Shown here one piece after another: positions 362 to 11,756 of a stretch of DNA of 11,823 nucleotides. A model generated the notes under the pieces. That model was not told the origin of the DNA, ran no database searches, and saw nothing but the letters and a program-made list of their open reading frames with translations. A program made the position numbers and the translations under genes. How positions within the stretch are numbered: the first letter of the stretch is position 1; the number at the start of each line of letters is the position of its first letter. The stretch spans positions 1-11,823 of the forward strand of contig JAITQP010000271.1 of the NCBI GenBank assembly GCA_031288885.1. Direction: 5' to 3'. Source of the DNA: Prevotellaceae bacterium (lineage in GTDB: Bacteria; Bacteroidota; Bacteroidia; Bacteroidales; UBA932).

Positions 362-2032
<1,671 letters not shown>

Positions 2033-2037
2033 CTAAG

Positions 2038-3153
2038 ATGCTTTTTACAGAGCTAATAGACACGTACGATTGGGATGCTATTCAATCCCGCATTTACGCC
2101 AAAACCGCCGGCGACGTTGAGCGCGCGCTGAACAGCGACAGGCGAAGCGTGGAGGATTTTATGGCGCTGGTTTCCCCCGCCGCGCAGGCCTACTTGGAGC
2201 CCATGGCGAGGCTCAGCCGCCGCTACACGCAGCAGCGCTTCGGCAACACCATTCAGCTCTACATCCCCCTCTACCTGACCAACTCCTGCATGAACCACTG
2301 CGTTTACTGCGGGTTTAACCACAGTAACAGCATCCGGAGGATTATCCTGACCGATGAGCAAATCCTGCGCGAGGCGGAGGCCATCAAGCGCATGGGCGAT
2401 TTTCAGCACATCCTGCTCGTAACCGCCGAAAATCCGCGCGACGCGGGAGCCGGCTACATCGAAAACGCTATCCGCCTGCTAAAACCCTACTTTGCCTCCA
2501 TCTCCATGGAGGTGCAGCCGCTGAAGGAGGCGGAGTACCGGCAGCTCTCCGAGGCTGGGCTCAACGCCGTGTACTGCTACCAAGAAACCTACCGCAAAGC
2601 CACCTACGGGCGCTACCACCCCAAGGGCATGAAGTCGAAGTTCGATTGGCGTTTGGACGGGTTTGACCGCATGGGGAGGGCGGGCGTTCACAAAATCGGG
2701 CTGGGTATTCTGGTCGGCTTGGAGGACTGGCGCACCGACGCGACGCTCATGGCGCTGCACCTCCGCTACCTGCAAAAATGCTACTGGCAAACCAAGTACT
2801 CGCTGTCGTTCCCCCGTATGCGCCCGCACGAGGGCGGGGATTTTCAGCCCAACGTCATCATGAGCGACAGGGAGCTGGCGCAGCTGATTTTCGCCTGCCG
2901 CATCTTTGACCACGACGCCGAGATTGCCCTGTCGACCCGCGAAAGCCCAACGTTTCGCGACAACATGGCCGGCTTGGGGGTAACTTCGCTCAGCGCAGGC
3001 TCCAAAACCGACCCGGGAGGCTACGCCGTTTACCGCAGCGAGCTGGAGCAATTTGCCATCAGCGACAGCCGCACGCCCGATGAAATCCTCGCCTCCGTGC
3101 GGGGGCAGGGGTACGAAGCCGTGTGGAAAGATTGGGATTTGAGGTTGCAGTGA
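2038..3153 (+). CDS. thiH: Tyrosine lyase ThiH (2-iminoacetate synthase)
   Basis: ThiH is a radical SAM enzyme that cleaves tyrosine to dehydroglycine (2-iminoacetate) and p-cresol, supplying the glycine-derived part of the thiamine thiazole in anaerobes and many facultative bacteria. With the ATG at 2038 the product has 371 residues, close to the family norm (about 370-380). The SAM-cluster motif CxxxCxxC is C84, C88, C91 (CMNHCVYCGF). Other family motifs are SMEVQPL, CYQETY, YHPKG, GILVGLEDWRTD and SFPRMRPHEG. An upstream in-frame TTG at 2026 would overlap the thiC stop. The ATG is preferred because it lies 5 bp after that stop and gives the usual N-terminus. Its usual partner ThiG is not in view, so it must be encoded outside the window. 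Confidence 0.96.
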   Translation: MLFTELIDTYDWDAIQSRIYAKTAGDVERALNSDRRSVEDFMALVSPAAQAYLEPMARLSRRYTQQRFGNTIQLYIPLYLTNSCMNHCVYCGFNHSNSIRRIILTDEQILREAEAIKRMGDFQHILLVTAENPRDAGAGYIENAIRLLKPYFASISMEVQPLKEAEYRQLSEAGLNAVYCYQETYRKATYGRYHPKGMKSKFDWRLDGFDRMGRAGVHKIGLGILVGLEDWRTDATLMALHLRYLQKCYWQTKYSLSFPRMRPHEGGDFQPNVIMSDRELAQLIFACRIFDHDAEIALSTRESPTFRDNMAGLGVTSLSAGSKTDPGGYAVYRSELEQFAISDSRTPDEILASVRGQGYEAVWKDWDLRLQ

Positions 3154-3245: not shown

Positions 3246-3262
3246 ATAAGCCTCACGCTTAT
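3246..3262 (+). promoter_or_regulatory. Hairpin covering the start codon of the AAA-ATPase-like gene
   Basis: ATAAGC (3246-3251) pairs perfectly with GCTTAT (3257-3262) across a five-base loop. The right arm includes the first two bases of the ATG at 3261, and a T-G wobble could add the third. In mRNA this would hide the start codon and could damp translation. Confidence 0.45.
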
Positions 3263-4823
3263 GCTACCTCTTAGAAAATTGCCCGTCGGCATACAGGATT
3301 TTGAAAAGCTGCGCACCGAAGAGTACGTTTACGTGGACAAAACGGCCTACATGCACCGGCTTACGCAAATGGGCTGGCCCTATTTTCTTGCCCGTCCGCG
3401 CCGCTTTGGGAAAAGCCTGCTCATCTCCACGCTCAAGGCGTATTTTCTGGGCAAAAAAGAGCTGTTTGAGGGCTTGGCGGTGAGCGCGCTGGAGAAAGAC
3501 TGGGTAGAGTATCCGGTTATCCATCTGGATATAAACAGGGCGTCGTACGAAACCCCGCAAACGTTTGAGGATAATCTTCACGCGCTGCTGAGCGAGTATG
3601 AGGAGACATGGCAGCTGGAAAACCGCATTGAGGATGTCTCCATGCGCTTTGACCGGCTGATAAGCGGCGCGCACCGGCAAACGGGGCGCAGGGTGGTGGT
3701 GCTGATAGACGAGTACGACAAGCCGCTGGTCAACACCTTGGATGACCCCGAGCGGCACAGCGCGCTACGCGAAATGCTGAAGAGCTTCTACGGCATCCTC
3801 AAAAGCGCCGACGCCCACCTGCGCTTCGTGATGCTCACCGGCGTTACCAAGTTTTCAAAGGTGAGCGTGTTTAGCGACCTGAACCACCTAATGGATATTA
3901 GCTTTGACAAAGAATTTGCCGGCATCTGCGGCATTTCCGAACCGGAGCTCATCGCCTGCTTTCAGCCGGAGATTACGGCGCTGGCCGACGAGCTCGGCAA
4001 AACCCGCGACGAAACGCTTGTCGAGCTGAAGCAGCGCTACGACGGCTACCACTTTTCCAAGAGCAGCGAGGGGCTCTACAACCCCTTTAGCCTGCTGAAT
4101 ACCTTATCCAAGAAAGCGTTTAGCGACTACTGGTATGCTACGGGTACGCCAACGTTCCTCGCTAAGATGATAAAGAGCATAGCGTTTGACGTAAAAAGTC
4201 TGGAGAATGACGTGCGCGTCCCCACCCACGGCATGACCGACTACAGGGTAGGGGAGGTGAAACCGCTACCGCTGCTCTACCAAAGCGGCTACCTCACCAT
4301 AAAGGGCTACGACGCGCTGCTCGACGAGTACGTGCTCGGCTTCCCCAACGGCGAGGTCAAGTACGGCTTTTTCAACGAGCTGCTGCCGGTTTACGTGCCT
4401 AACAAAGACGTCTGGAGCGAGTTCTCCGTAACGCACTTCCTTCGGGATTTGCTTGCGGGCAACGTTGACGGCTTCATGACCCGCCTGCGCGCCTTTTTTG
4501 CGGGGATACCCTACGAGCTCAACAACAAGGAGGAAAAGCACTACCAGACGATATTTTTCATCATGTTTCGCCTGATGGGGCAGTTTGTCGAGGCGGAGCA
4601 GCGCAGCGCCGCCGGTCGCGCCGATGCGGTGGTGGTTACCGGCAGCACGGTGTTCGTCTTTGAGTTTAAGCTCACCGGCAACGCCACCGCCGAAGATGCG
4701 CTGAGGCAAATAAACGACAAGGGCTACCTGATACCCTACTCCGCGGGCAGCAAGGCAATCGTAAAAGTCGGCGCAGAGTTTAGCGCGGAGGAGCGCACGC
4801 TGAGCCGCTGGGTGGTGGGATGA
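3261..4823 (+). CDS. AAA-ATPase-like protein with C-terminal PD-(D/E)XK nuclease domain
   Basis: The 520-residue product has the architecture of the AAA-ATPase-like (DUF1703-type) family joined to a PD-(D/E)XK nuclease domain, a group very common and often multicopy in Bacteroidota. The N-terminal part has the family opening VGIQDFEKLR and YVDKT, a Walker A-like RRFGKS (47-52) that lacks the usual GxxG start, and a Walker B VVVLIDEYD (145-153). Mid-protein motifs are RYDGYHF (259-265), SGYLTI (342-347) and FPNGEV (361-366). The nuclease fold shows GRADAVV (452-458, D455), EFK (468-470) and a downstream RQI (482-484), so the catalytic residues look intact. No signal peptide or membrane segment is seen. 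It has its own promoter and a converging neighbour, so it is a single-gene unit. The biological role of the family is unsettled; defence or mobile-element functions are possible but not shown here. Confidence 0.9.
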   Translation: MLPLRKLPVGIQDFEKLRTEEYVYVDKTAYMHRLTQMGWPYFLARPRRFGKSLLISTLKAYFLGKKELFEGLAVSALEKDWVEYPVIHLDINRASYETPQTFEDNLHALLSEYEETWQLENRIEDVSMRFDRLISGAHRQTGRRVVVLIDEYDKPLVNTLDDPERHSALREMLKSFYGILKSADAHLRFVMLTGVTKFSKVSVFSDLNHLMDISFDKEFAGICGISEPELIACFQPEITALADELGKTRDETLVELKQRYDGYHFSKSSEGLYNPFSLLNTLSKKAFSDYWYATGTPTFLAKMIKSIAFDVKSLENDVRVPTHGMTDYRVGEVKPLPLLYQSGYLTIKGYDALLDEYVLGFPNGEVKYGFFNELLPVYVPNKDVWSEFSVTHFLRDLLAGNVDGFMTRLRAFFAGIPYELNNKEEKHYQTIFFIMFRLMGQFVEAEQRSAAGRADAVVVTGSTVFVFEFKLTGNATAEDALRQINDKGYLIPYSAGSKAIVKVGAEFSAEERTLSRWVVG

Positions 4824-4831
4824 TGAAGAAT

Positions 4832-4863
4832 GAGGGTTCCGCAAAGCCCTCCGGCGTATTTTT
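4832..4863 (+). terminator. Weak terminator candidate between convergent genes
   Basis: GAGGGTT (4832-4838) pairs with AGCCCTC (4845-4851), including one G-T wobble, around a six-base loop. A five-T run (4859-4863) follows, but seven bases after the stem rather than directly. The hairpin lies just after the stop at 4823 and overlaps the end of the convergent gene, a reasonable place for a terminator. Confidence 0.3.
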
Positions 4864-5776
4864 ACCTCACGTAAGCTTTCAGCTTTTCGGCTTGCAGCGA
4901 GGTTATCAGGTTGTTTTTTATGAGCTCGTCGAGGGTGGGGACGCTGCCCTTGCGCTTGGCGTACTGCGCAATGCCGCGCGCCGCATACGCTCCAAGGTAG
5001 GGATGACGGCGCATGAGCTCAAGGTTTTCTTCGCTCAGCGTAAGCTTACGCACCAGCGACGTATCTACGCTCACGCGGCTGGCAAGGCGCTGCATCCGCT
5101 CGCTGCCAAAGTTCTTTATCTCCAGCAGCTGCTCTGCCGATGTGTAGCCGCCCAGCTGTTCGCGGTACTCCACAATTTTCTGGGCAAAGTACTTGCCAAT
5201 GCCCGGGAGGGTGCACAGCAGCGCGGTGTCGGCGGCGTTGAGCTCCACCAGCTGTGGCGCGGCGGCCTCCGTCTTTTCCGTGGCGCGCCGCAGGGTGTCC
5301 GCGTGGGGGGCGCTTTTGGCGGCAGCCGGCGCAATGTTGATGTAGGGTTGCAGCCGCTGCTTTTGCTTTTCGGTAATGACGCCCAGCTTCAGGAAATCGG
5401 CGGCGGTGCGGAACCGCCCTCCGCGCTCGCGGTATCGGGCAATAGCCGCAGCCTGCTTTGGGGAGAAGCCGAGCAGCGTTAGCGAGTCGGTGGAGATGGT
5501 GTTGGGGTCGAACTTGAAGGTTTGGCTTTTTGGCCGCTGCGATTTTTTGTCCAGCGCGCTTTCCTCCAGCTGCTCAAATTGCGATTGGGCGGCCTCGTTG
5601 AGCCTGTCGGCGTGCTGGCGAAGCAGGGAGATGTCGCTGTCGGCGAGCTTGGGGCGGAAGCAAGCTCGGTAAACGGGCGGAGCGAGCAGCAGCAAAAGCA
5701 GCAGCGCCCCCAAAAATAAAACGCCTCTGCGCTCGCCCTTGGAAAAGTCCAGCCAATCTTTGAGAAACCGGTTCAT
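4862..5776 (-). CDS. Membrane-anchored protein with three helix-hairpin-helix repeats (ComEA-like)
   Basis: The 304-residue product has a short positively charged start (MNRFLKDWLDFSKGERR), one membrane helix at about residues 18-36, a hydrophilic linker, and three helix-hairpin-helix (HhH) units at about 86-146, 176-240 and 243-303. The second is the clearest (VELNAADTALLCTLPGIGK, then YREQLGGY). HhH repeats bind DNA backbone without sequence specificity; ComEA proteins use them outside the membrane to capture DNA during transformation. A soluble part facing the periplasm is inferred from the N-terminal anchor, but the charge pattern gives only moderate support. Three repeats is more than the usual pair in ComEA. 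No competence genes are nearby. The ATG at 5776 is preferred over an in-frame TTG at 5785 because it fits the promoter-proximal leader. Involvement in DNA uptake is possible; the exact role is unknown. Confidence 0.85.
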   Translation of the reverse strand: MNRFLKDWLDFSKGERRGVLFLGALLLLLLLAPPVYRACFRPKLADSDISLLRQHADRLNEAAQSQFEQLEESALDKKSQRPKSQTFKFDPNTISTDSLTLLGFSPKQAAAIARYRERGGRFRTAADFLKLGVITEKQKQRLQPYINIAPAAAKSAPHADTLRRATEKTEAAAPQLVELNAADTALLCTLPGIGKYFAQKIVEYREQLGGYTSAEQLLEIKNFGSERMQRLASRVSVDTSLVRKLTLSEENLELMRRHPYLGAYAARGIAQYAKRKGSVPTLDELIKNNLITSLQAEKLKAYVR

Positions 5777-5800
5777 ATCAATCAAATTTCAAATTCCATA

Positions 5801-5954: not shown

Positions 5955-6464
5955 ATGGATGCAACAGTAAAACTTTATTCGCTATCGTACAGGGAGGCAA
6001 GAACCTACCTCTTTTCGTTGATTTTCATTGTGGGAAACATTGCGCTGCCTCAGCTTTGCCACCTGCTCCCCAACGGTGGGCTGATGTGGCTGCCGATTTA
6101 CTTTTTTACGCTGATTGCGGCGTACAAGTACGGCATTCGCGTTGGGCTGCTCACGGCTATTGCCTCGCCGCTTGCCAACAGCCTGCTGTTTGGCATGCCT
6201 CCGGCGGCGGCGCTGCCCATCATTGCTATCAAGTCGGTGCTGCTGGCGGTGGGGGCGGCTTACGCGGCGCGCGTTAGCGGAAAGGTGTCGCTGCTGGCCA
6301 TTGCGGCGGCGGTGGTGGCGTACCAGCTCGTCGGAACGCTCGTGGAGTGGGCTATTGTGGGCGATTTCTTCAGGGCGCTTAAGGATGTGAGGGTTGGGTA
6401 TCTCGGGCTGCTGGTGCAGGTGTTTGGTGGGTACGCTGCGCTAAAAGCGCTGGTTAAGCTGTAG
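5955..6464 (+). CDS. ECF transporter S component (substrate-binding membrane protein)
   Basis: The 169-residue product is almost wholly hydrophobic, with about six membrane segments (roughly 17-37, 44-58, 62-78, 85-106, 110-134, 147-167). Size and pattern fit the S component of energy-coupling-factor vitamin transporters. The run LPQLCHLLPNGG (31-42), IYFFTLIAAYKYG (48-60), SPLANSLLFGMP (71-82) and GTLVEWAIVG (127-136) resembles a Bacteroidales group annotated as ECF S component. It would bind a small cofactor or precursor in the inner membrane. No ATPases or T component are encoded here, so it should share a module made elsewhere. It is the first operon gene, and the next start lies 3 bp after its stop. 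The substrate cannot be told from sequence. Confidence 0.75.
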   Translation: MDATVKLYSLSYREARTYLFSLIFIVGNIALPQLCHLLPNGGLMWLPIYFFTLIAAYKYGIRVGLLTAIASPLANSLLFGMPPAAALPIIAIKSVLLAVGAAYAARVSGKVSLLAIAAAVVAYQLVGTLVEWAIVGDFFRALKDVRVGYLGLLVQVFGGYAALKALVKL

Positions 6465-6467
6465 GCT

Positions 6468-6866
6468 ATGCAGGCTAAGACGTTTGACGAGGTGCTGGAG
6501 AAATTCAGGCGGGTCGCCTTTGCTGAAAAGTTCGACATGGTTGTCGCCGTTGCCAACGGAGGGATAATACCCGCTGCCATCATCAACCAGCGGCTTGGCG
6601 TTGAAATTCAGCTGCTGAGGATTAACCTGCGCGACGACAACCAGCAACCGAGGTACGAGCACCCCAAGCTGCTATCGCCGGTGGACTTTGAGTTTAAGGG
6701 CAAAACCATTCTTGTGGTCGATGACCGCGTCAAAACGGGGGCTTCGCTTGCGCTGGCAAGGGAGCTGCTGCAGGGAGCAACGCTGATAAAAACCTTTGCC
6801 GTGAATGGAAGCGCCGACTATGCGCTGTATAACGAGGAATGCTTTAAATTCCCGTGGATAGCTTGA
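6468..6866 (+). CDS. Type I phosphoribosyltransferase-domain protein
   Basis: The 132-residue product is a compact type I phosphoribosyltransferase. The PRPP-binding signature is ILVVDDRVKTGASL (81-94), with the two acidic residues D85 and D86 and the following TGAS loop. VANGGIIP (28-35) corresponds to the pyrophosphate-binding loop. Such enzymes join a nucleobase-like ring to ribose 5-phosphate using PRPP. It is shorter than typical hypoxanthine or xanthine phosphoribosyltransferases (about 150-180), with a small hood region, so the base cannot be assigned. Its placement 3 bp after the S component suggests that it modifies and traps the imported substrate, though this is inference. The next gene starts 12 bp downstream. 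Confidence 0.85.
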   Translation: MQAKTFDEVLEKFRRVAFAEKFDMVVAVANGGIIPAAIINQRLGVEIQLLRINLRDDNQQPRYEHPKLLSPVDFEFKGKTILVVDDRVKTGASLALARELLQGATLIKTFAVNGSADYALYNEECFKFPWIA

Positions 6867-6878
6867 TAGAAAATAAGC

Positions 6879-8753
6879 ATGAAAAGAATATTGTTGATTT
6901 CAACCGCCCTTTTTTTACAGCTGCTGCCTGCCGGCGAAAGCCTTGCGAGCGCCATTACAGACTCCGTGCAGCTGGAGGGGGTTGTTGTAACAGGCTCACG
7001 TACAGAAGCAAGCCTGCAAAATATACCCATGAGCGTAACCGTTGTTGGCAGCAAAACGATTGAGAGCAGGCTGGAGCAATCGCTGTTACCCATTATCACA
7101 GAGGAAGTTCCGGGGCTGTTTATTACCGGACGCGGCGTAATGGGCTACGGAGTATCCACAGGCGCTGCCGGAGGGATGAAAATCAGGGGAGTAGGCGGCA
7201 GCCCGACTACGGGAGTGCTGCTGCTGATTGACGGTCATCCCCAGTACATGGGGCTTATGGGGCATCCCCTGCCCGACGCCTACCAGTCAATGATGGCTGA
7301 GCGCGTGGAGGTTATACGGGGCGCGGCGTCGGCTCTTTACGGCTCAAACGCTTCGGGGGGAGTTATCAATATTATCACCAAAAAGCAGCGGGTGGACGGC
7401 GTGGAAACGAACCTCAGGGCAATGTATGGCTCGTATAATACTGTCTCTTCGGAGGTTGGCAGCCATGTTCGCTCGGGGAAGTTCAGCAGCTACCTCTCGC
7501 TGGGGTACAATCGTAGCGACGGAACCCGCGAAAATATGGACTTTGACCAGTACAGCGCCTACGGAAAATTTGGGTACGATTTTACGCCAACGTGGAAAGC
7601 ATTTGCAGATGTGAACGTTACGAATTTTTCCGCCTCAAACGCCGGCGAAATCAACGACCCGCTAATTGACAACGACGCAGACGTTACCCGTGGCGTGGCC
7701 TCGTTTTCGCTTGAAAACAAGTATGATAAAACATCGGGAGCGTTGAAATTCTTCTACAACTTTGGGATGCACGAGGTTGACGACGGATACGCGCCAAACG
7801 GCGGCGTTCCTCGTGATTTTCACTTCCGCTCCACCGACAACATGCTTGGAGTGTCGCTGTACCAAACGCTTAGCCTTTTTACGGGAAACCGCATTACCGC
7901 CGGACTTGACCTCCAGCGCTTTGGCGGTCGCGCGTGGAGCAGCTATTTGGACGGCAGGGCGGATGTTGATATCGTAGAAAAAGGAATTAACGACGCCGCC
8001 GGATACCTCACTATTGAGCAAAGCGTGCTCTCCAACCTGCTGCTAAACGCCGGAGTAAGAGCTGATAACAACAGCAGGACGGGCACGGAGTGGATTCCGT
8101 CGGTGGGGCTTAGCTTCCCCGTATCCGGCGCAACAGCGCTGAAGGCCATTGTGAGTAAAGGATTTAGAAACCCCACCATCAGGGAGATGTACATGTTTCC
8201 GCCGCAAAACCCCGACCTCAAGCCGGAGCGGTTGATGAGCTACGAGCTGTCGTTTTCGCAAAAGCTGCTGGACTACAAGCTGGGGTTTGATGTTAACGTG
8301 TTCTACATCAACGGAAATAACGCCATACAAACGGTAATGTTAAATGGCAAGCCACTAAACGTCAATATCGGCAAAATTGAAAATTACGGTTTGGAGCTGG
8401 CGTCTTTCTACAAAGTTACTCCAAGCTTCAGCATATCTGCCAACTACAGCTGGCTGAACATGAAGTACAAGGTGGAGGCAGCGCCGGAGCATAAGCTGTA
8501 TGCGGGTTTTAGCTATGCCGTATCGAAGTGGAGGCTTGCATCGGGCGTGCAGCATATTGGAAATCTTTACGTTGGAGAAAATTTGGTAAAGAATTCCTTT
8601 ACCCTCTGGAACGTAAGGGCAGCCTATAGCGTCTGGAAATCGCTGGAGCTGCTTGTGAGGGGCGAAAATCTGCTGTCGCAAAAGTATGAAATCAACGAAG
8701 GATACCCAATGCCGGAGGCAACGGTATTTGGTGGCATAAATTTAAGGTTTTAA
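6879..8753 (+). CDS. TonB-dependent outer-membrane receptor (siderophore/cofactor type)
   Basis: The 624-residue product starts with a signal peptide (MKRILLISTALFLQLLPAGESLASA, cut near 24). A TonB-box-like segment LEGVVVTGSR (32-41) follows, then a plug domain (about 47-168) with MKIRGVGG (100-107), LLLIDGHPQ (114-122), ERVEVIRGAASALYG (141-155) and NASGGVINIITKK (157-169). The rest is a 22-strand-type barrel ending in an aromatic residue (GGINLRF). It lacks the N-terminal carboxypeptidase-like domain and SusD partner of glycan receptors and is close in size to BtuB/CirA-like receptors. Iron chelates, heme, cobamides or other cofactors are thus likelier cargo than sugars. The plug segment at 118-139 is rich in Met and His. 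It sits mid-operon with genes on both sides within 25 bp. Confidence 0.93.
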   Translation: MKRILLISTALFLQLLPAGESLASAITDSVQLEGVVVTGSRTEASLQNIPMSVTVVGSKTIESRLEQSLLPIITEEVPGLFITGRGVMGYGVSTGAAGGMKIRGVGGSPTTGVLLLIDGHPQYMGLMGHPLPDAYQSMMAERVEVIRGAASALYGSNASGGVINIITKKQRVDGVETNLRAMYGSYNTVSSEVGSHVRSGKFSSYLSLGYNRSDGTRENMDFDQYSAYGKFGYDFTPTWKAFADVNVTNFSASNAGEINDPLIDNDADVTRGVASFSLENKYDKTSGALKFFYNFGMHEVDDGYAPNGGVPRDFHFRSTDNMLGVSLYQTLSLFTGNRITAGLDLQRFGGRAWSSYLDGRADVDIVEKGINDAAGYLTIEQSVLSNLLLNAGVRADNNSRTGTEWIPSVGLSFPVSGATALKAIVSKGFRNPTIREMYMFPPQNPDLKPERLMSYELSFSQKLLDYKLGFDVNVFYINGNNAIQTVMLNGKPLNVNIGKIENYGLELASFYKVTPSFSISANYSWLNMKYKVEAAPEHKLYAGFSYAVSKWRLASGVQHIGNLYVGENLVKNSFTLWNVRAAYSVWKSLELLVRGENLLSQKYEINEGYPMPEATVFGGINLRF

Positions 8754-8777
8754 ATTTCCCTAATAAAATAATTAACC

Positions 8778-9707
8778 ATGGACAGAAAACAATTTTTAAG
8801 GACGATAGCGCTGACCGGAGCCGTTATCACGCTGAAATCGAAAGCCGGAATGGATTTGATGGCGCAATCGCAAAACGGTAAGGCGGTTGACTTGGTTGCC
8901 GTGATGGGCGGCGAGCCGGAGGAAATGTTCCGGCAGGCCATTGAGGAGCTGGGAGGTATGTCCCAGTTCATCAAAAAAGGCTGGAAGGTGGTCGTAAAGC
9001 CCAACATTGGCTGGGACAAATCGCCGGAGCTGGCGGGAAATACCAACCCGAAGCTGGTGGGCGAAATTGTGCGCCAATGCTTTCAGGCGGGGGCTAAGGA
9101 GGTGATAGTGTTTGACCACACCTGCGACGACTGGCTAAAATGCTACAAGAACAGCGGTATCGCGGCGGCGGCTGAGGCGGAGGGCGCAAAAATGGCGCCG
9201 GCAAACGAGGAGTCGTACTACAAAGAGGTGGAGCTGCCCGACGCAAAGAAGCTCAAAACCGCCAAAATCCACGAGGCAATCCTGAACAGCGACGCGTGGA
9301 TTAACGTTCCCGTGCTGAAGCACCACGGCGGCGCAAACCTGTCGATTTCCATGAAAAACTACATGGGGATAGTTTGGGACAGGCGCATTTTTCACCGCAC
9401 CGACCTCCAGCAGTGCATTGCCGACATTTGCACCATGTACAAACGACCGGCGCTGAACGTTGTTGACGCCTACCGAACCATGAAAACCAACGGGCCGCAA
9501 GGCCGCTCAACCGCCGACGTGGTGAGCACCAAGAGCCTCTTTGTCTCGCGGGATATTGTGGCGGTGGATACCGCCGCCGCAAAATTCTTTGGGCAGGTCA
9601 GGGATATGCCCTTGGAAAACGTGGGGCACCTCGCCAACGGGCAAACGCTGGGAATAGGAACAATGGACTTGGAAAAGCTGAACATCAAAAGAATAAAATT
9701 GGGATAA
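8778..9707 (+). CDS. DUF362-family protein with Tat-like N-terminus
   Basis: The 309-residue product begins MDRKQFLRTIALTGAVITL, a twin-arginine-like leader with RK in place of RR followed by FLR and a hydrophobic stretch. Export across the inner membrane is likely but not certain. The body has the DUF362 pattern: VVVKPNIGWD (71-80), TNP (89-91), INVPVLKHHGGA (175-186), SMKNYMGI (191-198), NVVDAYR (227-233) and AVDTAAAKFFG (262-272). The family has no established single function and often occurs next to or fused with ferredoxin domains. Only scattered cysteines are present (101, 116, 122, 213, 218), so it has no ferredoxin cluster motif of its own. It lies 24 bp after the receptor and 3 bp before the polyferredoxin gene, suggesting that the two products work together. 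A catalytic partner that receives electrons is a reasonable guess. Confidence 0.88.
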   Translation: MDRKQFLRTIALTGAVITLKSKAGMDLMAQSQNGKAVDLVAVMGGEPEEMFRQAIEELGGMSQFIKKGWKVVVKPNIGWDKSPELAGNTNPKLVGEIVRQCFQAGAKEVIVFDHTCDDWLKCYKNSGIAAAAEAEGAKMAPANEESYYKEVELPDAKKLKTAKIHEAILNSDAWINVPVLKHHGGANLSISMKNYMGIVWDRRIFHRTDLQQCIADICTMYKRPALNVVDAYRTMKTNGPQGRSTADVVSTKSLFVSRDIVAVDTAAAKFFGQVRDMPLENVGHLANGQTLGIGTMDLEKLNIKRIKLG

Positions 9708-9710
9708 GGG

Positions 9711-11243
9711 GTGCTGAGGATAACAAGAACATTCATATCGATAGCGTTATTTTCGCTGATAACGTTTTACTTTGTTGACTTTGCAGGGCTAATGCCAAAC
9801 CGCTGGCACGTGCTCATGCATCTGCAGTTTATACCCGCAATTTTGGCGCCTGCCGGCGTTGTGCTGCTGATATGGGTTGTCCTGACGCTGCTGTTCGGGC
9901 GGGCGTACTGCTCCTCCATTTGCCCCATGGGGGTGTATCAGGATGTGGTGGCGTGGGCGTCGAAGCGTGCCGCCAAAAAGAAAAAACGCTACAAGTTTAG
10001 CAAAGCTAAGAACATCCTGCGCGCGTCTGTGCTCGTGGTCACGGTGGGCGTTTTTTGGAAGCTCCCGCTAATGCTGGGTTTCGTTGACCCGTACAGCGCG
10101 TACGGGCGGATGGCGGCAAACATCTTCCGTCCGGTTTACATGGCCGGCAACAACCTGCTGGCAACGCTTTTCATGAAATTTGAAAACTACACTTTCTACA
10201 AAACGGACGTATTCGTAGCAAGCGCATTCTCCCTTGCGGTAGCCCTGCTGACCATGCTCGCCATAGGCTACCTCGCGTGGAGAAACGGGCGCACGTACTG
10301 CAACACGATTTGTCCGGTGGGGACAATGCTGGGATTTTTGAGCCGCTTTTCCGTTTTCAAAATCAGGATAGATGAGGGTAAGTGCAACAGCTGCGGAGCC
10401 TGCGAGGCGCAGTGCAAGGCGGCGTGCATCAGCAGCAAGCAAAAAACCATCGACAGCAGCCGCTGCGTGGACTGCTTCACCTGTCTGGACGTTTGCCGGC
10501 GGAATGCCCTGAAGTTCTCCCCTCCGCTTGCCCGCGCCAAGAGCGCGGACGCGGCGGCAGCAAAAGTTCCCGTAGATGGGGGGAAGCGCCGCTTTCTGAA
10601 GGCCGGCGTTTTAACAGCGGTTGCCGCCCCCGTTGCGACCATCGAGGATGAGGTGAACAGCCTGCGGAAAAGCAACCGCTACGTCCGGCAGCAGCCCATT
10701 CTGCCACCGGGCGCGGTGAGCACGGAGAATATGCTGAAGCGCTGCACCTCGTGCCACCTGTGCATCAGCAAGTGCCCGTCGCGGGTGCTGAAGCCGGCCT
10801 TTATGGAGTACGGGCTTGCCGGAATGATGCAGCCAACAGTGCACTTCGAGAATGGGTTTTGCAACTTCGACTGCACCATCTGCTCCGAGGTGTGCCCTGC
10901 CGGCGCAATAAAGCCGCTCACCAAAGACCAAAAGCATTTAAATCAGAGCGGGCACGTAGTTTTTACGCGCGACATTTGCGTTGTGCAGACCGATGAAACC
11001 AGCTGCGGCGCCTGCTCGGAGCACTGCCCCACGCAGGCGATAACGATGGCTCCCTACAAGGGCGGGCTCACCATTCCGCAGATAAACGTTGAAATATGCA
11101 TAGGTTGCGGCGGGTGCGAGTTTATTTGCCCCGTTCGCCCATACCGCGCCATTCACGTGGAGGGGCACGCCGTGCAGGGCAAAGCAAAACCCTTTGAGGA
11201 GCAGAAAAAAGAGGAAAAAGAAATAGAAGATTTTGGATTTTAA
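9711..11243 (+). CDS. NapH-like membrane polyferredoxin fused to NapG-like periplasmic ferredoxin
   Basis: The 510-residue product has two halves. Residues 1-270 are NapH/NosR-like: four membrane helices (about 5-25, 44-63, 103-123, 167-188), two CxxxCP motifs (C67-C71, C197-C201) and two cytoplasmic-type [4Fe-4S] sites (C225/C228/C231/C235 and C252/C255/C258/C262). Then GGKRRFLKAGVLTAVAAPVA (290-309), a twin-arginine-like signal, lies in the middle of the chain. It is followed by LPPGAVSTEN and four more cluster motifs (C345/348/351/355; C384/388/391/395; C423/432/435/439; C463/466/469/473), the layout of periplasmic NapG. Electrons from menaquinol or a cytoplasmic donor could reach the periplasm. 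No NapA nitrate reductase is present; DUF362 is the neighbour. The GTG start is chosen because it adds the first membrane helix and follows the previous stop by 3 bp. The charged tail EEQKKEEKEIED is unusual. Confidence 0.88.
   Translation: MLRITRTFISIALFSLITFYFVDFAGLMPNRWHVLMHLQFIPAILAPAGVVLLIWVVLTLLFGRAYCSSICPMGVYQDVVAWASKRAAKKKKRYKFSKAKNILRASVLVVTVGVFWKLPLMLGFVDPYSAYGRMAANIFRPVYMAGNNLLATLFMKFENYTFYKTDVFVASAFSLAVALLTMLAIGYLAWRNGRTYCNTICPVGTMLGFLSRFSVFKIRIDEGKCNSCGACEAQCKAACISSKQKTIDSSRCVDCFTCLDVCRRNALKFSPPLARAKSADAAAAKVPVDGGKRRFLKAGVLTAVAAPVATIEDEVNSLRKSNRYVRQQPILPPGAVSTENMLKRCTSCHLCISKCPSRVLKPAFMEYGLAGMMQPTVHFENGFCNFDCTICSEVCPAGAIKPLTKDQKHLNQSGHVVFTRDICVVQTDETSCGACSEHCPTQAITMAPYKGGLTIPQINVEICIGCGGCEFICPVRPYRAIHVEGHAVQGKAKPFEEQKKEEKEIEDFGF

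Positions 11244-11675: not shown

Positions 11676-11756
<81 letters not shown>

Follow-up and report, generated by a model that had tools for sequence, protein, structure and literature searches.

Positions 1 to 11,823 of contig JAITQP010000271.1 (Prevotellaceae bacterium, GCA_031288885.1) comprise the whole contig and are referred to below as the window; the genome is of Bacteroidales type, 2.49 Mb in 320 contigs, and is 79.5% complete. Five open reading frames (ORFs) on the + strand, with gaps of 3, 12, 24 and 3 bp, form an operon (Table 1) that encodes a likely S component of an energy-coupling factor (ECF) transporter (S), a phosphoribosyltransferase (PRT), a TonB-dependent receptor, a DUF362 protein and a polyferredoxin (PFD). 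An earlier reading from the letters alone (the sequence-only reading) had given this layout, which the ORF coordinates confirm, and had described the genes as joining two-membrane uptake, an enzyme using phosphoribosyl pyrophosphate (PRPP) and a periplasmic redox module. The operon is real and is more interesting than described there, and the interpretation attached to it is partly supported.

Table 1. Features of the window (Tat, twin-arginine translocation; A7, alignment of DUF362 proteins)
Feature	Position	Strand	Basis or remark
S, solitary ECF-type S component (probable), 169 aa	5955..6464	+	PF12822 relatives, helical AlphaFold (AF2) model, EcfT absence
PRT, type I phosphoribosyltransferase, 132 aa, PRPP motif VVDDRVKTGAS	6468..6866	+	PF00156, 52 bits
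TonB-dependent receptor, 624 aa	6879..8753	+	PF00593 and PF07715
DUF362, Tat-type N terminus (DRKQFLRT), predicted LarA-fold domain	8778..9707	+	PF04015
PFD, NapH-NapG-type fused polyferredoxin, GTG start	9711..11243	+	Fer4_5, several Fer4
His114 codon of DUF362 (cf. LarA His108)	9117..9119	+	A7; variable, some family members having Asn
His183 codon of DUF362 (cf. LarA His174)	9324..9326	+	invariant in 24 sequences of A7
Lys193 codon of DUF362 (cf. LarA Lys184)	9354..9356	+	invariant in 24 sequences of A7
His206 codon of DUF362 (cf. LarA nickel-ligand His)	9393..9395	+	invariant in 24 sequences of A7
thiC and thiH	389-3153	+	NCBIfam equivalogs, upstream of the operon
AAA-ATPase-like (PF09820) and PDDEXK_9 protein	3261-4820		between the thi genes and the operon
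Helix-hairpin-helix protein	4862-5785	-	HHH_3; just upstream of the operon
(AC)n dinucleotide run, about 75 bases	11679-11753		near the contig end

Pfam places PRT, the receptor, DUF362 and PFD in the families named by the sequence-only reading; the ECF assignment of S is weaker than was written there. S matches no Pfam family at 1e-3 and scores 18.1 bits against PF12822, for which the cut-off is 30.7. In alignment A1, 11 of 13 proteins match PF12822 at E<=1, at best with 1.9e-5, and source annotations call relatives of S 'ECF transporter S component'. The AlphaFold model is a helical bundle (predicted local distance difference test, pLDDT, 83.6), and the sequence of S matches no solved chain and hence no solved S component either. 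EcfT (PF02361) was found neither in the window genome nor in 49 of 51 genomes with S (those of loci L044 and L075 have it), the same search being positive in 10 of 14 control genomes, and an EcfT partner was rejected on these grounds. The receptor resembles BtuB over its full length at low score (TIGR01779, 136 bits with a cut-off of 600; E about 1e-14 against BtuB chains), and PFD shows matches below cut-off to NapH, NapG and NapF (NCBIfam napH_ 73.9 bits, cut-off 213; NapG 57.5 bits, cut-off 269) and an internal RRFLK motif ahead of its C-terminal Fe-S half.

Relatives of S were collected with an alignment of 13 S proteins as query, and for the best 80 of at least 548 found in named genome contigs we counted partners on the same strand as S and within 9 kb. 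PRT is found at 34 of these loci, DUF362 at 31, a polyferredoxin at 40, a receptor at 25, an aldo/keto reductase at 20 and DUF1893 at 18. The full five-gene set stands in the order of the window at 16 loci, with proteins about 49-87% identical, so that the operon, proposed earlier from a single sequence, is not a product of chance. All but the receptor are present at 11 loci, and DUF362 and polyferredoxin without PRT at three; PRT and DUF362 lie at a contig end in L013, PRT and DUF1893 never occur together, and none of the partner genes is near S at 18 loci, contig ends among them. The closest named loci, among the matches listed, are from Prevotellaceae metagenome-assembled genomes, and the S loci with DUF362 come from records named Bacteroides, Parabacteroides, Dysgonomonas, Proteiniphilum, Petrimonas, Paludibacter, Azobacteroides and uncultured Prevotellaceae. 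The sequence-only reading knew of no described pathway with this set, and we likewise found no matching description in the open-access literature with queries combining DUF362 and TonB, or ECF, Bacteroides, PRT and TonB, or with queries on DUF1893 and solitary S components.

The DUF362 protein starts with MDRKQFLRTIAL, which reads as a Tat-type signal carrying RK instead of RR. Its predicted structure has the fold of the cofactor domain of LarA, a lactate racemase with a nickel cofactor, matching over model residues 43-276 and mainly the LarA N-terminal domain, while in sequence it matches only PF04015 and not Lar_N (PF09861/DUF2088) at 1e-3; PF09861 was not found in the window genome. The pattern Hx9Kx12H is present in 81 of 81 DUF362 sequences (the set fetched for the tree, leaving out pieces shorter than 250 aa and the duplicate loci L102 and L103; five of the genomes labelled 'none' in it, L086, L093, L101, L138 and L186, have lar genes at other places), and its residues are tentatively matched to those of LarA. 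The last of them, His206, is compared with the nickel-ligand His of LarA, which we take to be residue 200. Lys193 is compared with Lys184, the presumed attachment residue of the nickel-pincer nucleotide (NPN) according to PMC11796402, which gives about 450 Da for the adduct on LarA.

A survey of 198 Bacteroidales genomes ties DUF362 to genes for making this cofactor. DUF362 was counted in 59 genomes (of 60 matches, the weak one in G341 being left out), LarC in 23 (counting G436, where the match is weak and partial), LarB in these 23 plus G450, and LarA in seven. DUF362 and LarC are shared by 15 genomes where 6.9 are expected (p=2e-4), LarC or LarB is found in 16 of the 59 DUF362 genomes, and of the 16 LarC genomes that have no LarA ten have DUF362. 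In eight genomes from seven families (G302, G310, G405, G411, G424, G442, G446, G447) larC adjoins DUF362 divergently, larC, larE and larB standing in line in five of them, and at L102 the three genes beside DUF362 score above the NCBIfam thresholds of LarC, LarE and LarB. DUF362 is also present in five of 14 named control genomes, four of them with LarC and LarB; the fifth, Bacteroides ihuae, carries S-PRT-DUF362-polyferredoxin (L042). B. nordii is likewise of the S-PRT type. The LarA fold and the adjacency to larC, larE and larB point to a cofactor enzyme and, together with the His/Lys set, suggest that its cofactor is of the NPN type. As reported in PMC11796402, larB, larC and larE occur without larA in about 15% of surveyed genomes and the protein that receives NPN there is unknown; the predicted fold, the Lys/His pattern and the lar adjacency in Bacteroidales make this question directly testable with DUF362, which serves as an outgroup in the one open-access paper found on nickel-pincer enzymes and DUF362 together.

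The sequence-only reading had given DUF362 another role: after entry of a substrate by the receptor, DUF362 would use polyferredoxin electrons to reduce or release it in the periplasm, S would carry it in and PRT would trap it. The order of the operon and its recurrence fit such a route, as do the Tat-type N termini, the NapH/NapG-type partner and a parallel operon (below) that likewise pairs a Tat-type redox enzyme with a polyferredoxin, and BtuM (PMC6072759) offers a precedent, being a solitary S component by which the ligand is chemically altered. However, 52 of the 59 DUF362 genomes have no S, a receptor is among the shown neighbours of DUF362 in only three of 52 maps (L090, L183, L190), and the linkage to larC, larE and larB is not predicted by this route. 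A polyferredoxin, in contrast, follows DUF362 in 20 of 20 loci of a first mapped set and in 51 of 52 of a second. DUF362 and polyferredoxin are thus a module independent of S, so we do not favour a role in reducing what is imported, and we regard the periplasmic route as somewhat unlikely.

On another reading, the operon might place two unrelated modules on one transcript, a base salvage system of S and PRT, with or without the receptor, and a periplasmic redox pair of DUF362 and PFD, held together by shared regulation or chance fixation. The genome counts speak for this, the pair being mostly without S: S is present in 22 of the 198 genomes and coincides with DUF362 in seven, where 6.6 are expected (p=0.5), so that the genome-level association looked for as a check on the sequence-only reading was rejected. 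PRT also occurs without DUF362 at six of the 80 loci, some of them contig ends, and in L005, which spans 3.5 kb only. Clustering, however, is as that reading expected: S and DUF362 lie in one cluster in five of the seven shared genomes (G000, the window genome, with G073, G325, G399 and G437) and on other contigs in G307 and G401, and the 31 S loci with DUF362 on the same strand come from many genera. Where PRT is missing S directly adjoins DUF362 (L006, L008, L085, L146), and the parallel operon is built on the same logic and has genes joined in frame. Two unrelated modules seem to us rather unlikely.

Close relatives of PRT (at least 56% identity) are found in seven of the 198 genomes, all with S, and adjoin S in six, the two being on separate contigs in G401; two further matches at 35-38% identity (G366, G468) are in genomes without S. 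TM1506, which is DUF1893 by Pfam and which a review (PMC8946771) describes as a family of ADP-ribosylating proteins, the prototype of which modifies itself in this way, is found in 19 genomes, 15 of them with S and nine of these with the two genes within about 4 kb. In all, 21 of 22 S genomes have PRT or TM1506, both only in G353 and neither only in G414, where S is at 39% identity. That one ribose-transferring enzyme is replaced by another beside S supports ribosylation of the imported molecule, and the earlier proposal that it is trapped as a ribotide gains accordingly.

In purine-handling xanthine phosphoribosyltransferases a Lys binds the O6 of the base. The aligned residue in PRT is Val112, conserved in at least 90% of 16 family sequences, which argues against a 6-oxopurine. 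Uptake of xanthine, guanine or hypoxanthine by S with PRT as a xanthine PRT relative, which the best PDB matches (purine PRTs) and automatic naming as 'xanthine phosphoribosyltransferase' would favour, is therefore very improbable, PRT scoring 47.6 bits against an NCBIfam cut-off of 138 and TM1506 standing in for it in most S genomes.

The architecture with TM1506 (L056, for example) consists of a polyferredoxin, a Tat-type Fe-S aldo/keto reductase, DUF1893, a receptor and S; the L077 variant runs from DUF1893 through S to a reductase without a Tat-type start. DUF1893 reads in frame into the receptor with no stop in L158, L159 and L161, which may be a true fusion or internal initiation, and at L160:5134-6978 it follows the Tat-type reductase in frame, in which case TM1506 would sit outside the cytoplasm. 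In L162 a DUF362-like protein, with what we read as a Sec-type signal, stands just before S and after the reductase and DUF1893 frame. A second DUF362 protein upstream of S, which lacks a Tat-type start and carries 4Fe-4S motifs, is seen in L026, L027, L033, L059, L083 and L085 (Pfam was run on that of L026), and a gene that we label tatC-like lies near S in seven of the 80 loci (L025, L034, L048, L062, L072, L073, L077).

Upstream riboswitches, suggested earlier as a check, did not materialize: Rfam riboswitch families gave no match in the window at E<=1, nor, at gathering scores, in any of the 12 S loci searched out of the 80, and a riboswitch upstream of S was rejected. The first 78 bases of the window give five microRNA-family matches far under gathering scores. 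Apart from the window, thiC lies within 9 kb of S in three of the 80 loci (L026, L027, L083), too rarely for a thiamine link, which was not used.

Taken together, the operon quite possibly makes a periplasmic oxidoreductase and supplies the nucleotide cofactor that this enzyme needs. DUF362 would be filled with cofactor in the cytoplasm, an NPN-type or other pyridine-derived mononucleotide, and exported folded, and the membrane polyferredoxin with which it is paired would pass electrons across or along the inner membrane, to or from DUF362. The receptor would carry the cofactor base or a precursor through the outer membrane, and S would bring it in where larBCE is absent, as seems to be so in the window genome. 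PRT would then attach ribose 5-phosphate, both trapping the molecule and making the mononucleotide that DUF362 binds before export; in the parallel version TM1506 would replace PRT and the Tat-type reductase would replace DUF362. The redox protein may thus be a customer of the transporter rather than a processor of its cargo, and the order of causes is probably other than first proposed. Consistent with this, S and LarC are shared by none of the 198 genomes (2.6 expected, p=0.056), and 50 of 51 S genomes have no LarC.

Several observations weigh against this proposal. S and DUF362 are not enriched together, the parallel operon has S without this DUF362, and we know of no type I PRT acting on pyridine bases. 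One S genome (G249, that of L009) has LarC and LarB, and while LarC and LarB were not found in the window genome (LarE was not searched genome-wide), at 79.5% completeness its own absences are weak. Sequence-profile comparison gave no reliable alignment of DUF362 with LarA, so that the residues are equated through their spacing and through the extent of the structural match, and the Tat motif RRxF, with RR in 76 of 81 sequences, has RK in the window's DUF362 and four relatives. Both LarA and DUF362 are missing from six of the 23 LarC genomes, and two controls, C. glutamicum and M. jannaschii, possess LarC and LarB but no DUF362. Finally, lar genes and S are both lacking in 36 of the 59 DUF362 genomes (37 before LarB was found in G450), so that DUF362 may do without this cofactor or obtain it in another way.

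A small membrane protein of about 175 aa adjoins DUF362 in only 14 of these 36 genomes (35 were mapped; in L187, G470, no DUF362 was recognised), divergently in 13 and in the same direction in one (L095, L097, L099, L100, L168, L169, L172, L173, L174, L179, L180, L181, L182, L184). It is beside DUF362 in none of 14 mapped lar genomes, two of the 16 with DUF362 (G333, G338) being mapped only at larC; a Fisher test on 0/16 against 14/37 gives p=0.0025, which is only approximate for the mapped 0/14 against 14/35. The protein has no Pfam family over cut-off, and homology to S was rejected (hhalign probability 0.7% with 14 sequences, 0.4% with 4); judged by sequence we treat it as analogous to S only, not demonstrably related.

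It is possible, if doubtful, that DUF362 is a missing non-LarA NPN protein, a periplasmic enzyme of LarA fold wired to a polyferredoxin, and that gut Bacteroidales lacking larBCE take up the cofactor or its pyridine base by way of the receptor and S and ribosylate it with a dedicated PRT or with TM1506. If S and PRT do form a salvage route it would be the first system known to us for taking up this cofactor, and the recurring gene set in gut-type Bacteroidales suggests that some bacteria import a cofactor made by others.

Four known systems provide points of comparison. The NPN racemases of the LarA type (DUF2088) depend on a cofactor made by LarB, LarC and LarE; DUF362 differs by its Tat-type signal, its polyferredoxin partner and a LarA match limited mainly to the N-terminal domain. 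PFD is like the NapH/NapG quinol dehydrogenase pair in joining a membrane polyferredoxin to a NapG-like Fe-S domain, but as one fused protein, under the cut-offs and with DUF362 or an Fe-S aldo/keto reductase as partner. With xanthine-guanine phosphoribosyltransferase PRT shares the type I PRT domain and PRPP motif and differs in the exchange of Lys for Val in the base site and in its length. Like BtuM and BioY, the solitary S components of PMC6072759, S is a probable S component found in genomes that nearly all lack EcfT; unlike them, it is paired with PRT or TM1506.

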